Part shown: piece by piece, positions 27,697 to 34,164 of the stretch
Layout: each line of letters starts with the position of its first letter
Numbering within the stretch: position 1 is the stretch's first letter
From: Acidobacteriota bacterium
GTDB taxonomy: Bacteria > Acidobacteriota > Thermoanaerobaculia > Gp7-AA8
Length of the DNA: 64,000 nucleotides
NCBI GenBank assembly: GCA_021325515.1
Contig: JAJPHC010000032.1
Location: 1-64,000, forward strand
Reading direction: 5' to 3'
Translations under genes and position numbers: made by a program
The notes under the pieces: generated by a model
Told to the model about the DNA's origin: nothing
Database searches by the model: none
What the model saw: only the letters and a program-made list of their open reading frames with translations

Positions 27697-28713
27697 ATGG
27701 CCAAGTCACAAGAGGCAGTTCTCGAGGCGGCGGGCCGCGAAGTCGTCATCACCAATCCGCAGAAGATTTTCTTTCCGCGCGCCGGTCATACGAAGCTCGA
27801 TCTCGCGAACTACTACCTCGCGGTCGCCGAAGGCGCGCTGCGCGGCACTCGTGCGCGGCCGTTCGTGCTCAAGCGTTACGTGAACGGCGCAGATCAGGAG
27901 CCGTTCTTTCAGAAGCGCGCGCCGGAGAAGCATCCCGACTGGATCGAGACGGTGGAGCTGAAGTTTCCGTCGGGCCGCACCGCTCGCGAGGTCGTCATCC
28001 GCGATGCCGCCCAACTCCTCTGGGTCATCAACCTCGGCTGCATCGACCTGAATCCGCATCCGGTGCGCGCCGATGATCTCGATCATCCCGACGAGTTGCG
28101 CGTCGATCTCGATCCCGGACCGGGAGTGAGCTTCGCCGACGTGCGCCGCGTGGCGCTCGTCGTGCGCGACGTGCTCTCGGATCACGCGCTCGCCGGCTGG
28201 CCGAAGACGTCCGGCTCGCGAGGCATGCACATTAACGTCCGCATCGTCCGCCGCTGGACGTTCGGCGAAGTCCGCCGCGCGGCCCTCGCGCTCGCACGCG
28301 AGGTCGAGAGGCGAGTGCCGGAGCTCGCAACGAGCAAGTGGTGGAAGAAGGAGCGTCACGGCGTCTTCATCGATTACAACCAGAACGCAAAGGACCGAAC
28401 GGTCGCATCGGCGTGGTCGGTGAGGCCGACGGACGATGCGCGCGTCTCGATGCCGCTTACGTGGGAGGAAGTGCCGGACTGCGATCCGTCGGCGTTCACG
28501 CTGGCAACAGCGCCTGCGCGATTCGCCCAAGTGGGCGATGCATCCGCGGGAATCGACGAAGACGCGGGCTCGCTGGAAAAACTGCTGGAGCTTTCCGCGG
28601 AGCAGGAACGGAGCGGGCTCGGCGATGCGCCGTGGCCTCCGTTTTATCGGAATGGGAGGAATGGGAGGAATGGGACGGATGGGACGGATGGGACGGATGG
28701 GACCGATGGGTAG
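27697..28713 (+). CDS. Stand-alone LigD polymerase domain (AEP primase-like, NHEJ)
   Basis: 338 residues. LigD_Pol fold: VVITNPQKIFFP, LKRYVNGADQEPFFQKRAP, WVINLGCIDLNPHPVRADD, metal-binding Asp pair in LRVDLDPGPGVSF, and TSGSRGMHINVRI. It adds nucleotides at broken DNA ends in Ku/LigD end joining. It lacks the ligase and phosphoesterase modules; a separate ligase gene faces it. The last roughly 15 residues (NGRNGRNGTDGTDGTDG) are encoded by a 9-base minisatellite that is also part of the intergenic hairpin. No ku gene is in the window. Confidence 0.92.
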   Translation: MAKSQEAVLEAAGREVVITNPQKIFFPRAGHTKLDLANYYLAVAEGALRGTRARPFVLKRYVNGADQEPFFQKRAPEKHPDWIETVELKFPSGRTAREVVIRDAAQLLWVINLGCIDLNPHPVRADDLDHPDELRVDLDPGPGVSFADVRRVALVVRDVLSDHALAGWPKTSGSRGMHINVRIVRRWTFGEVRRAALALAREVERRVPELATSKWWKKERHGVFIDYNQNAKDRTVASAWSVRPTDDARVSMPLTWEEVPDCDPSAFTLATAPARFAQVGDASAGIDEDAGSLEKLLELSAEQERSGLGDAPWPPFYRNGRNGRNGTDGTDGTDGTDG

Positions 28714-28767
28714 AACGCCCGTTCCCATCCGTCCCATCCGTCCTATCCGTCCCATTCCTCCCATCCA
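28649..28767. repeat. Inverted 9-bp minisatellite between convergent NHEJ genes
   Basis: Left arm: repeats of ATGGGAGGA then ATGGGACGG (about 28649-28711). Right arm: the inverse (CCGTCCCAT, CCTCCCAT, about 28724-28767). The two arms can pair as a long hairpin. It spans the 3' ends of both convergent genes: the left arm encodes the polymerase C-terminus and the right arm encodes the ligase end (GWEEWDG). Confidence 0.85.
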
Positions 28768-29825
28768 AACACGCGCGCCAGCTCGAACGCTGGCGTCACC
28801 TCGAGCTGATCGTACTTACACTCCTCCGCTCTCTTGTCGAACCGCCAGCGCAGAAACCTCGCGCCGTGGCGGAAGCGCGTCCCCTGCATGTGGTCGTAGG
28901 CGACTTCGACGACGCGCTCCGGCCGCAGCGGCTCCCAGCTCAAATCCTTGCCCCGGTTCCACCGGCTGCTCGCCCCCGGCATCCGCTGCTCCATCTGCGC
29001 CTCGGCCCATCCCCGCCACGGATGATCCCGCAGCACATCGACGCGCAACGGCGCGAGCTCTTCGACGAGCTGCTTCCGCACGGCATTCGTGAATGTCGAG
29101 GTCACGCCGACGTGGTGCAGCGTTCCGTTAGAGTCGTAGAGCCCGAGGAGCAGGGAGCCGATCATGGTGCCGGGCCCGTTCTTGTGCCAGCGAAATCCGG
29201 CGACGACGCAATCGGCCGTGCGGGTGTGCTTGATCTTGACCATCGTCCGCTCGCCCGGACGGTACGGTGAGTCGAGCCTCTTGGCCATCACGCCATCGAG
29301 TCCCGCGCCTTCGAAGCGCTGGAACCAGTCGGCGGCGAGCGCGCGGTCGAGCGTCGACGGAGAGAGATGCAGCGGCGGCCGGATGCCGCCGAGCTCGTTT
29401 TCGAGGCGAGCGCGCCGTTCCGCGAGCGGCGTCTCGCGCAGATCCTCGCCGCCGAGCGCCAGCAGATCCCAGGCGACGAATGACGCGGGCGACTGCTCCG
29501 CGAGCAGCTTCACGCGCGACGCAGCGGGATGAATCCGCAGCAGGAGCGCTTCGAAATCTAGTCCCGCCGGACCGGCGATGACGATCTCGCCATCGAGGAC
29601 ACAACGCGAGGGGAGCATCGCCTTCAGCGGCTCGAGCAACTCGGGAAAGTAGCGATTCAGCGGCTTCTCGTCGCGGCTCTGCAGAAATACTTCGTCCCCG
29701 TCGCGGAAGACGATCGTGCGGAAGCCGTCCCATTTCGGCTCGAAGAGCCAGCCTTCGCCGCCCGGCAGGTCATCGGCGGCCGTCGACAGCATCGGGGCGA
29801 GCGGAGGATCGAAGGGCAGGTGCAT
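28743..29825 (-). CDS. ATP-dependent DNA ligase (LigD/LigC type)
   Basis: 360 residues. Adenylation motif I EPKWDGFR with the catalytic Lys (about 30), motif III DGEIVI region, motif IV DGVMAKRLDSPYRPGER, motif V MVKIKHTRTADCVV, then an OB-fold domain with WRGWAEAQMEQRMPG and RWRFDKRAEECKYDQL. It joins DNA ends, probably with the facing LigD polymerase. The last residues (GWEEWDG) come from the shared minisatellite, so both enzymes have repeat-derived tails. Confidence 0.93.
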   Translation of the reverse strand: MHLPFDPPLAPMLSTAADDLPGGEGWLFEPKWDGFRTIVFRDGDEVFLQSRDEKPLNRYFPELLEPLKAMLPSRCVLDGEIVIAGPAGLDFEALLLRIHPAASRVKLLAEQSPASFVAWDLLALGGEDLRETPLAERRARLENELGGIRPPLHLSPSTLDRALAADWFQRFEGAGLDGVMAKRLDSPYRPGERTMVKIKHTRTADCVVAGFRWHKNGPGTMIGSLLLGLYDSNGTLHHVGVTSTFTNAVRKQLVEELAPLRVDVLRDHPWRGWAEAQMEQRMPGASSRWNRGKDLSWEPLRPERVVEVAYDHMQGTRFRHGARFLRWRFDKRAEECKYDQLEVTPAFELARVFGWEEWDG

Positions 29826-30724: not shown

Positions 30725-31306
30725 TTGTCTCGGTTCCGCATCGCGCTCCTCGCAGCGCTCACGCTTCTGGGATCTTTACAATCAACGGCTATGACTTCAC
30801 CTGAGAATGGACACGGCACGGCAGGACTCGAAAAGGCGACACTCGCAGGGGGATGTTTCTGGGGCGTGCAGGATTTGATTCGCAAGCTGCCCGGCGTCGT
30901 TTCGACGCGCGTCGGCTACACCGGCGGCAGCGTCAAGAACGCGACCTACGAGCACCACGAAGGTCACGCCGAGGCCGTGGAGATCACGTTCGATCCGAAG
31001 AAGACGTCGTTCGAACAGATCCTGCTCTTCTTCTTCAAGATGCATGATCCGACGACGTTGAACCGGCAGGGCAACGACATCGGCGCGTCGTATCGCTCGG
31101 CGATCTTCTATCACGATGAGAATCAGAAGAAGATCGCGGAGGAGGTCAAGGCGCGCGTCGACAAGTCAGGCGCATGGAAGCGCCCCGTCGTGACGGAGAT
31201 CGTTCCGGCGAAGGAGTTCTGGCTGGCCGAGGAGGAGCACCAGGACTATCTGGTGAAGCATCCGCACGGATACACGTGTCACTACGTGCGGAACATCAAC
31301 TTCTGA
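30725..31306 (+). CDS. msrA: Peptide methionine-S-sulfoxide reductase, exported
   Basis: 193 residues. MsrA signature GGCFWG (catalytic Cys about residue 42) and the following [26 protein letters not shown] and HPHGYTCHY. It repairs oxidised methionine. The first roughly 22 residues ([17 protein letters not shown]) form a signal peptide, so it acts in the periplasm or outer membrane. The TTG start is supported by AGGAGG five to six bases upstream. A cytoplasmic form could begin at 30791. No thioredoxin-like partner is adjacent. Confidence 0.92.
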
Positions 31307-31330
31307 AAAACGACGGCCGTCGTACACTCG

Positions 31331-31347
31331 ATTACCTGCGACGTAAT
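31331..31347. promoter_or_regulatory. Candidate operator of the XRE regulator (site 1)
   Basis: ATTACCTGCGACGTAAT: a palindrome with 7-bp arms, one mismatch and 3-base centre, 35 bases upstream of the secreted-protein gene at 31382. The same 20-mer, with one substitution, occurs upstream of the regulator itself (32871-32890). Confidence 0.6.
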
Positions 31348-31381
31348 TGAAGTCGCGCTCCGGCGGACGCATTCTCCAGTA

Positions 31382-32053
31382 ATGAAACGTTCATTGCTGG
31401 GGGTGCTGCTCATGAGTGCAATCTCGATCGCCGCGCAAACCGAACAGGGACGCTACGCGCGCATCTCGACTCTTCGTCCGCACGATGGCGACACGGTCGA
31501 TTTCGAAGCGGGCTACATCCGCCACCTCGAATGGCATCGGCAGGCAAAGGACTCGTGGAGGTGGTACGGCTGGACGATCTGGGCGGGCGACCGGCAGCGG
31601 TCGTTCGTCTACGCAACGTTCAACCGCACCACCGCGGAGCTCAACGCGCCGGTTTCTCCGGTGGACGATGAACGCGACAACATCATCAACGTCACGCCGC
31701 ACGCGCAATTCACAGGCAGCGCGCTCTACGAATTTCTGCCGGAGCTCTCGCGCGGCAGCGGCGAGCCAACCCCATCAGCGCGCGTCGAGATGCTGACGGT
31801 CGAGCTGACACCCGGCAACGCGAAGTCCTTTGAAGCGGCATTGCGCGGCGAACCGCAAGGAGAGACGCTCTGGTATCGAATGATCGCCGGCGGCTCGGCG
31901 CCGCGCTATGTACGGCTGCGTCCGCGCGCATCGCTCGGCGCATTGCTCGATGAGCGTGCGGAGCTGCCTGAGGCCGCCGCGCGTCTCGTTGCGAAAGAGA
32001 CGATCGAGATTCTCAGCTTTCGCCCGGCGATGTCGTACGGGCTTGCGCCGTGA
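31382..32053 (+). CDS. Secreted protein of unknown function
   Basis: 223 residues with a signal peptide (LLGVLLMSAISIAAQ). No family recognised. It is rich in Trp/Tyr in the first half (WHRQAKDSWRWYGWTIWAGD), a pattern that could suggest carbohydrate or lipid contact, but this is weak. It carries an operator-like palindrome upstream and converges with, and overlaps by 41 bases, the XRE regulator gene. The shared palindrome suggests it is a target of that regulator. Confidence 0.72.
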   Translation: MKRSLLGVLLMSAISIAAQTEQGRYARISTLRPHDGDTVDFEAGYIRHLEWHRQAKDSWRWYGWTIWAGDRQRSFVYATFNRTTAELNAPVSPVDDERDNIINVTPHAQFTGSALYEFLPELSRGSGEPTPSARVEMLTVELTPGNAKSFEAALRGEPQGETLWYRMIAGGSAPRYVRLRPRASLGALLDERAELPEAAARLVAKETIEILSFRPAMSYGLAP

Positions 32054-32834
32054 GCGTTTCGTCGTCCGCCGGAAAGAACGCTTCGACGCGCAGCTCCTGC
32101 AGCGTGATGTCATGCGGCGTGCCGAGCGTCGTCAGAGTGGAGAAGTAACTCCGATGCAAGTCCCCCTTGCGGAATTCGATCGCGAGGAACGGCGCCGTGG
32201 AGACGTCGAGATCGAGCGAACGCCACTTCGCGGGGACGCCGGGATACGAAAGCAATTCCGTGAGCAATGCGCGTGTCTCTTCGCCGCCGAGGCCACTGAG
32301 CACGTCGCGATGGAGCCATTGAATCAGTGCGGCGGCCATCGCGTCCCAGTTCACGATCCACGGCCTGAAGCCGCGCGGATGAAACATCAGCCGCATCGCG
32401 TTGCCGCCCCACGCGTCCGCAGCTTCCGGATCCGTGAACTGCTCGACGAGACGTACCGCACCGTCGTTGGCTTTGAGAATCGCCCACTTGCGATCGACGA
32501 CGATCGCGGGATACGGCTCCTGCTGACGCAGCATGAACTCCAGCGCGCGGCGCGCTTGCGCGAGATGCGGTGCATCGAGATCCGTCGCGCGATACATCGC
32601 CGCGAATCCCGCTGCCATCAGCAGCTCGTTCTGATCGCGCAGCGGAATGTCGAGCACGCGTCCGAGCGTGAGAATCATGTCGCGGCTCGGCTGCGACCGC
32701 CCGGTCTCGATGAAGCTGACGTGCCGCGACGACACGCCGGCTTCGATCGCAAGATCGAGCTGGCTCACGCGGCGCCGCGTCCGCCACTCGCGCAGCAACA
32801 CACCAAACGGGCTTTCGGATTCGATCGTGCTCAT
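32013..32834 (-). CDS. XRE-family regulator with MmyB-like ligand-binding domain
   Basis: About 273 residues. Helix-turn-helix at about 10-65 (LREWRTRRRVSQLDLAIEAG; SSRHVSFIETGRSQPSRDMI). The C-terminal domain matches the MmyB-like PAS-type domain (ALEFMLRQQEPYPAIVVDR; NAMRLMFHPRGFRPWIVNWD; DLDVSTAPFLAIEF). Members bind small, often fatty-acid-like, ligands; the ligand here is unknown. A perfect palindrome (ATTACCTGCGAGGTAAT) lies 37 bases before its start and serves the divergent dipeptidase too. Its start could be the TTG at 32843. Confidence 0.9.
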   Translation of the reverse strand: MSTIESESPFGVLLREWRTRRRVSQLDLAIEAGVSSRHVSFIETGRSQPSRDMILTLGRVLDIPLRDQNELLMAAGFAAMYRATDLDAPHLAQARRALEFMLRQQEPYPAIVVDRKWAILKANDGAVRLVEQFTDPEAADAWGGNAMRLMFHPRGFRPWIVNWDAMAAALIQWLHRDVLSGLGGEETRALLTELLSYPGVPAKWRSLDLDVSTAPFLAIEFRKGDLHRSYFSTLTTLGTPHDITLQELRVEAFFPADDETLTAQARTTSPGES

Positions 32835-32870
32835 GACGAGCAACTGTACGCCTCAGCGGATCGCAGAACG

Positions 32871-32887
32871 ATTACCTGCGAGGTAAT
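32871..32887. promoter_or_regulatory. Candidate operator of the XRE regulator (site 2)
   Basis: ATTACCTGCGAGGTAAT: perfect 7-bp arms with a 3-base centre, in the divergent gap between the regulator gene and the membrane dipeptidase gene. It is followed by TGA, as at site 1. Confidence 0.68.
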
Positions 32888-32922
32888 TGATCCACTGCGG
32901 GAATCAGCGGATCATCGGCGCC

Positions 32923-34164
32923 ATGAACCGCATGATCACTCTCGTCCTCCTTCTTGCGTCATTGGGACAAACGGAGAGTCCGTCCGCGCACGCGCGCGTC
33001 GAGCGCATCCTGCATGACGTACCGCTGATCGACGGCCACAACGATCTTCCGTGGCAATACCACGAGCGTGCGAAGGATCATCTTGCGCAGGTCGACATCA
33101 GCAAGGATCAGAGCGGCCTCACTCCGCCGCTGCACACTGACATCCCGCGGCTTCGCAAAGGAATGGCCGGCGCGGAGTTCTGGTCCGTCTATGTTCCGAC
33201 CACTCTGAAGGGCGCTGACGCGGTGCAGGCCGTGTTCGAACAGATCGATGTCGTCTATCGTCTCGACGAGCGTTACTCCGATACGTTCGAGCTGGCGCGC
33301 ACCGCGGACGACGTGATGCGCATTCATCGCGCGGGCAAGATCGCGTCGCTGATCGGCGTCGAGGGCGGCCACTCGATCAACAACTCCCTCGGTGTCCTGC
33401 GCCAGCTCTATGCTGCCGGAGCGCGCTACATGACGATCACGCACAGCGACAACAACGACTTCGCCGACTCCGCCACCGCGGATCCTGTACACAACGGACT
33501 CACTCCCTTCGGCAAGCAGGTCATCGCCGAGATGAACCGCCTCGGCATGCTCGTCGATCTCTCGCATGTCGCACCCAAGACGATGAACGACGTGCTCGAC
33601 ATCGCTTCCGCGCCGGTGATCTTCACCCACTCCTCCGCGCGCGCCGTCACCGATCATGCCCGCAACGTTCCCGACGATGTCCTGCGACGCCTGAAACAGA
33701 ACGACGGCGTCGTGATGGCGAGCTGGGTCCCGGCATTCGTTTCCGACAAAGTGCGCGAGCAGACCGCGGCACACGATGCGGAGGAGACACGGCTCAAGGC
33801 GCTGTATCGCGGACAACCGGAGCGCGTCAAGGAGCTCCTCGCGCAATGGGACGCCTCGCATCCGGTACCGCATGCGACGCTGAAGGATGTCGCGGATCAC
33901 ATCGATCATCTCGTGCAGATCGCGGGCGCAGAGCATGTCGGCATCGGCACGGATCTCGACGGCATCACGAGCACCGTGGAAGGACTCGACAGCGCGGCCG
34001 CGTATCCCAGGCTCTTCGAAGAGCTGGCCGCGCGCGGTTACACCGACGACCAATTGCGCGGCATCGCGGGGTCGAACATCCTGCGCGTGATGCGGAAGGC
34101 GGAAGCGGTTGCGGCGCGGTTACAGAAAGAAAAATCCCCGTCGGATGTGCGGATCGACGACTGA
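32923..34164 (+). CDS. Membrane (renal-type) dipeptidase, M19 family
   Basis: 413 residues with a signal peptide (MITLVLLLASLGQTES). Zinc-site motifs of M19: LIDGHNDLPW (His-x-Asp), GVEGGHSINN (bridging Glu), MTITHSDNN, LVDLSHV and IFTHSSARAV. C-terminal GIGTDLDG matches the family. It hydrolyses dipeptides, including D-residue or dehydropeptides, in the periplasm. The palindrome at 32871-32887 in its promoter suggests control by the divergent XRE protein. Confidence 0.93.
   Translation: MNRMITLVLLLASLGQTESPSAHARVERILHDVPLIDGHNDLPWQYHERAKDHLAQVDISKDQSGLTPPLHTDIPRLRKGMAGAEFWSVYVPTTLKGADAVQAVFEQIDVVYRLDERYSDTFELARTADDVMRIHRAGKIASLIGVEGGHSINNSLGVLRQLYAAGARYMTITHSDNNDFADSATADPVHNGLTPFGKQVIAEMNRLGMLVDLSHVAPKTMNDVLDIASAPVIFTHSSARAVTDHARNVPDDVLRRLKQNDGVVMASWVPAFVSDKVREQTAAHDAEETRLKALYRGQPERVKELLAQWDASHPVPHATLKDVADHIDHLVQIAGAEHVGIGTDLDGITSTVEGLDSAAAYPRLFEELAARGYTDDQLRGIAGSNILRVMRKAEAVAARLQKEKSPSDVRIDD

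Follow-up and report, generated by a model that had tools for sequence, protein, structure and literature searches.

A shared palindrome very probably forms the operator of an XRE/MmyB-type regulator with a small predicted regulon in an Acidobacteriota genome

Two nearly identical palindromes, one before a gene for a secreted-type protein and the other in the divergent gap between an XRE/MmyB-type regulator gene and a dipeptidase gene, raise the question of whether a single ligand-sensing regulator controls all three genes and, if so, whether it activates or represses them. We addressed this question in a window of 64,000 nt (contig JAJPHC010000032.1 of assembly GCA_021325515.1, forward positions 1-64,000), which belongs to the genome of a soil bacterium (5.38 Mb in 63 contigs, with a completeness of 99.84%). 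The features of the locus are collected in Table 1.

Table 1. Operators, genes and putative promoter elements of the locus, in window coordinates.
Feature	Position	Strand	Remarks
Operator 1	31331..31347	.	17-bp palindrome ATTACCT-NNN-AGGTAAT with one change; precedes the secreted-protein gene
Putative -35 TTGAAG, secreted protein	31347..31352	+	first base common to operator 1
Putative -10 CATTCT, secreted protein	31370..31375	+	weak match; 22 bp from operator edge, 6 bp before ATG
Secreted-type protein	31382..32053	+	ATG 34 bp from operator 1
Regulator, XRE HTH + MmyB-like ligand-binding domain	32013..32834	-	ATG at 32834, 36 bp from operator 2
Putative -10 TACAGT, regulator	32843..32848	-	22 bp from operator edge, 8 bp before ATG
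Operator 2	32871..32887	.	perfect 17-bp palindrome ATTACCT-GCG-AGGTAAT; regulator/dipeptidase divergent gap
Putative -35 TTGATC, dipeptidase	32887..32892	+	first base common to operator 2
Putative -10 GATCAT, dipeptidase	32910..32915	+	22 bp from operator edge, 7 bp before ATG; 4/6 to TATAAT
M19 (renal-type) dipeptidase	32923..34164	+	ATG 35 bp from operator 2; Peptidase_M19 375.8 bits

Pfam searches matched the N-terminal part of the regulator to XRE-type HTH domains (HTH_31, 40.3 bits, cut-off 27; HTH_3, 32.4 bits, cut-off 23) and residues 98-264 of its C-terminal part to the ligand-binding domain MLTR_LBD (PF17765, 100.4 bits, cut-off 26.3), and it is the only MLTR_LBD gene in its own genome. 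A profile built from 20 relatives matched the fatty-acid-bound MltR structure 3pxp across both domains (E 2.9e-7), a structure that the search with the single sequence did not reach. An alternative upstream TTG start of the regulator at 32843 is present in the ORF listing. The dipeptidase carries a full-length PF01244 catalytic domain (profile 2-319 of 319), the secreted-type protein has no Pfam match, and both are probably exported, judging by eye from their hydrophobic, signal-peptide-like N-termini. The contents of the three genes are those given in the original prediction, made from the DNA letters. The secreted-protein and regulator genes are convergent, and their 3′ ends overlap tail-to-tail by 41 bp (32013-32053). 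On the other side of operator 1, and 24 bp away from it, lies the end of a gene for MsrA (peptide methionine sulfoxide reductase, 30725-31306), whose product begins like a signal peptide; this gene was considered as a member of the regulon, but because it reads towards operator 1, it is not an evident target. Short GGMGRMG / NGTDGTDG-type repeats were also seen at 28500-28770, at the end of the ORF 27697-28713 and beside the ORF 28743-29825.

The secreted protein had been put forward as one of unknown function, a description that still stands as far as Pfam is concerned but has become too bare now that a predicted fold is available. A first model from 4 sequences (pLDDT 48) was discarded, and a model from 19 relatives reached a pLDDT of 89.9 with two beta-alpha-beta-beta-alpha-beta repeats, which predicts for this protein a tandem dimeric alpha/beta-barrel of the ferredoxin-like beta-alpha-beta kind. 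Its best fold matches in the PDB were 2pgc (a marine metagenome protein, E 1.7e-8), 3f44 and 3mcs (putative monooxygenases) and PenE (9kdp), followed lower down by sulfur oxygenase reductases and chlorite dismutases, all of them matches at the level of fold only with about 10-14% identity. Against the ABM monooxygenase family (PF03992) the window protein gave no match, and its best-scoring relative reached 17.4 bits, below the cut-off of 23.1. Weak matches of a 4-row profile to oxalate decarboxylase (E 0.004-0.01) were dropped, as the fold gives them no support, and no relative of the secreted protein was found in the viral contigs searched.

Concerning the operators, the original prediction had correctly placed the same 20-mer, with one change, at both sites; the stretch they have in common is 22 bp long and differs at one base (31329-31350 versus 32869-32890). 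The window contains 3 matches to the palindrome at ≤3 mismatches versus 0.19 expected, a number reached in 0 of 100 shuffles, and a version of the palindrome with a six-base spacer gave no match. The genome scan proposed along with that prediction singled out the same two places: operators 1 and 2 are the only sites with ≤1 mismatch in the whole own genome (5,377,942 bases), the base-composition estimate at window GC being 0.0014 such sites per 64 kb. Two further sites with 2 mismatches turned up in the genome scan and were rejected as extra targets, since each either falls within an ORF or is without a suitably placed start codon.

Whether the palindrome belongs to the regulator was judged from homologous regulator loci, for which the best 80 of 171 from one scan for relatives were used. 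This set is weighted to Mycobacterium and Caballeronia and also includes Acidobacteriota, Rokubacteria, Alphaproteobacteria, Lysobacter, Bradyrhizobium, Actinomadura and others. The palindrome lies within 200 bp upstream of the regulator at ≤2 mismatches in 70 of these best 80 loci and was found at ≤3 mismatches in 77, and the site-bearing loci among them span Acidobacteriota, Rokubacteria, Pseudomonadota and Actinomycetota. Two of the three exceptions, L010 and L015, have no site near the gene at ≤3 mismatches, L010 having a perfect one about 0.5 kb upstream, and the third, L082, begins at a contig edge. At ≤2 mismatches there were 78 forward matches versus 1 for a reversed control pattern in 818,501 bases, which comprise the 80 loci and one stretch each of two related genomes, G016 and G017 (the stretch of G016 coincides with locus L006). 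When 396 genomes of the phylum were drawn separately, a relative of the regulator at E ≤ 1e-20 was found in 29; leaving out the window genome and G016, a site was present within 300 bp upstream in 17 of the 27 others at ≤2 mismatches and in 19 at ≤3, and 8 had none there at ≤3 mismatches. Sites with ≤1 mismatch were confined, within the family, to 3 of the 18 genomes compared, and a regulator relative of full length is encoded in these 3 and in no other; the remaining 15 have neither, some of them showing short HTH matches only, and the reversed control pattern occurs in none of the 18. As 70 of the 80 relatives carry it upstream, the palindrome is very probably the operator of the regulator clade itself, and the tie between operator and XRE/MmyB regulator that had been proposed for this locus is borne out by these loci and by the exact match with regulator presence in the family. 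In mycobacterial loci (among L017-L085) the operator is often accompanied on its divergent side by a further half-site resembling AGGTAA, some 10 bp beyond it.

The position of the operator, on which the original prediction is silent, is regular. It was measured in 79 loci where a site was found at ≤3 mismatches, namely 77 of the best 80 of 171 together with G017 and the window; in 73 of them an in-frame ATG or GTG of the regulator lies 33-37 bp from the operator edge, mostly at 34-36 bp. Of 98 loci, 91 have a -10-like hexamer (xAxxxT, with A at position 2 and T at position 6) at offset 21-23, as do 56 of the 63 that are non-redundant, and seven control windows of equal width gave 2-13 of 98. 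The same hexamer recurs on the divergent side, at offset 22 in 53 and at offset 23 in 18 of the 98 loci, for which reason the operator appears usually to lie between two mirror-placed -10 elements. Gapless alignment of 50 non-redundant loci on the operator revealed conserved bases at offsets 23 (A), 25 (A) and 27 (T); GG adjoins the operator on the regulator side, where TGG(C) stands in place of a good -35, and next to the operator on the target side the opposite strand reads TTG(A/C). The position of the putative -10 of the dipeptidase is likewise conserved among the relatives' loci, and 31 of 97 loci have a divergent ORF of ≥70 codons that starts 32-37 bp from the operator, such ORFs starting later or not being found in the rest. 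The geometry is not universal, since in three distant Acidobacteriota relatives (L152, L155 and L158) the palindrome lies only 2-6 bp before the in-frame start instead of about 35 bp. A promoter scan of 31250-33000 found no strong stand-alone sigma-70 promoter.

We favour, with a probability of roughly 0.6, the reading that an autoregulating, ligand-sensing XRE/MmyB-type dimer controls the regulator, the dipeptidase and the secreted protein through the two palindromes by class-II-type activation. We infer that the dimer binds both 17-bp palindromes and thereby would control its own gene, the divergent dipeptidase gene and the convergent secreted-protein gene. Each palindrome would touch the -35 position, just upstream of it, with the -10 element 22 bp and the start codon 34-36 bp from its edge; with this spacing the transcripts would probably be leaderless and the dyad would lie near -43. 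Class-II-type activation, including autoactivation, through contact with RNA polymerase is preferred because this is about where lambda CI at OR2 activates PRM, and also because the strict spacing suggests polymerase contact and the regulator side has no good -35; the scan result given above fits the need for an activator. The fixed spacing from operator to -10 to start thus suggests leaderless transcripts and a position like that of OR2 and PRM, and favours activation short of proving it, so that the sign of regulation is held with only a moderate preference. The dimer would be switched by a small ligand, probably an amphipathic one, occupying its PAS-like domain at the C-terminus.

Repression through the same operators and at the same targets is the chief alternative: bound beside the -35s, the regulator would keep both divergent promoters off until a ligand releases the protein. 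Autorepression is common among XRE proteins, the operator at the start codon in L152, L155 and L158 is a geometry that would suit it, and the conserved target-side TTG(A/C) hexamers by the operator are fair -35s that could give basal transcription; such promoters might be active without help and be under repression. However, a repressor has no need of the fixed operator-to--10 spacing seen in 91 of 98 loci, nor does it explain a regulator side that offers TGG(C) and no good -35, and the operator stands where OR2 stands relative to PRM to within a few bp. MmyB, moreover, is described as an activator (PMC3406030). On balance we regard repression as rather unlikely, while according it a substantial share of the probability.

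The membership of the predicted regulon was compared across the three regulator genomes. In the window genome the operator-adjacent genes are those of the regulator, the dipeptidase and the secreted protein. In G016 an MFS transporter gene diverges from that of the regulator, the secreted-protein gene, again convergent, has an operator of its own, an EamA exporter stands behind a third site (C44), and an ortholog of the dipeptidase, on a different contig from the regulator, stands behind a fourth (C30, 2 mismatches, 37 bp before the ATG). In G017 there is, besides the operator of the regulator, a second one with an MFS transporter gene on one side and the secreted-protein gene, present as two copies in tandem, on the other, and the dipeptidase ortholog has no operator site. 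An operator thus precedes the secreted-protein gene in each of the 3 regulator genomes and the dipeptidase gene in 2 of them, an MFS transporter joins the predicted regulon in two relatives' genomes and an EamA exporter in one, and all 11 operator-adjacent genes of the three genomes, a count that leaves out the second tandem copy of G017, start 34-37 bp from the operator edge. The tandem copies (L117:7127-8463) share one operator, and the first appears without a signal-peptide-like N-terminus and the second with one.

Outside these genomes, the counterparts of the two target genes that were scored lack such sites. Dipeptidase orthologs in regulator-less genomes (L125, L127, L129, L130 and L131) have nothing better than 6 mismatches (0 of 5), L129 lying near a contig end and L132 and L133 being unscored for want of the anchor motif. 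For the secreted protein, 0 of 20 homologous loci beyond the three regulator genomes have a site (≤3 mismatches, within about 1.5 kb), and its place in the regulon therefore looks like a recruitment within this lineage.

Could the dipeptidase lie on the other side of the operator by coincidence, with only autoregulation and the secreted protein being real? Its gene does not adjoin the regulator in G016 or G017, and the G017 ortholog is the one without a site; but the unlinked G016 ortholog carries its own 2-mismatch site at 37 bp, and in the window the ATG is at the canonical 35 bp with -35- and -10-like hexamers in register, and we consider such a coincidence improbable. That both palindromes are chance matches, or the site of an unrelated regulator, is least credible of all in view of the low base-composition expectation and of the co-occurrence of site and regulator across the 18 family genomes and in 70 of the best 80 of 171 loci. 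The secreted protein and the dipeptidase, both named as targets in the original prediction, have gained support from the relatives, as has its reading of regulator, dipeptidase and secreted protein as a mini-regulon, and the small gene circuit predicted from these sequences is very probably real.

The genes divergent from the regulator elsewhere are varied, comprising MFS transporters (L006, L084), 4HBT thioesterases (L007, L021), a DUF2834 protein (L014), SnoaL-like proteins (L056 and, further off, L078) and, in mycobacteria, small proteins without Pfam match; several divergent partners are small ORFs without Pfam match, for which the choice of the real ORF is uncertain. A wider interpretation, which we advance tentatively and at somewhat less than even odds, is that of a phylum-spanning, nearly mirror-symmetric bidirectional promoter module, in which one 17-bp operator of a ligand-sensing MmyB-type dimer would lie between two -10 elements about 22 bp from its edges, starts would be leaderless and the dimer would contact RNA polymerase on either side in a PRM-like geometry, with the switch kept constant while evolution replaces the cargo, be it a dipeptidase, a transporter, a thioesterase, a SnoaL-like protein, a small membrane-type protein or another gene product. 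As to function, a link to antibiotic synthesis as for MmyB was considered, and the neighbouring genes give it no support. Our guess is that the regulon removes an amphipathic or peptide-like compound, which would suit the transporters, the dipeptidase and the monooxygenase-like secreted protein.

XRE regulators with autoregulatory palindromes are well known, and what may be new here is the conserved geometry. Wang et al. 2025 (PMC12565409) describe palindromic XRE motifs in 223 motif clusters, take the palindromes before XRE regulator genes as autoregulatory sites, and report binding in EMSA for 9 of 10 tested pairs; the present palindrome may be among the 223 clusters and hence already in print. 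A search of the full-text literature by motif letters and by MmyB regulon, binding site or B-box did not find the operator sequence, the cluster sequences of that paper lying outside its coverage. MmyB-type regulators are widespread, and their operator and sign are hardly known in the literature found. If the proposal is true, a single palindrome at fixed spacing, from Acidobacteriota to Mycobacterium and Caballeronia, would allow targets to be predicted from sequence for many sensors and would provide a ready-made test for ligands of MmyB-type sensors, and in the genome studied here it would tie a predicted exported dipeptidase, a predicted secreted barrel protein and the relatives' two transporters to one signal.

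Among known systems, the regulator most resembles MltR (Caur_2278, PDB 3pxp) and MmyB of the methylenomycin cluster, which likewise combine an XRE HTH with a PAS-like MLTR ligand-binding domain. MmyB has been suggested to recognise pseudo-palindromes called B-boxes, and the crystals of MltR held a fatty acid whose relevance the authors left open (PMC3406030). In contrast to these systems, the regulator studied here is predicted to act on genes for a dipeptidase and a secreted barrel protein, joined by transporters in relatives, and not on antibiotic genes. The arrangement also resembles that of lambda CI at OR2 and PRM, where a 17-bp operator of an HTH dimer lies upstream of the regulator's own gene; by annotated coordinates, the leftward gene has its start codon 33 nt from the edge of OR2, versus 34-36 in the window. 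PRM is leaderless and is activated from OR2. Unlike lambda, the present locus has one operator that would serve two divergent promoters and no co-operative operator array, and its regulator has a small-molecule domain.
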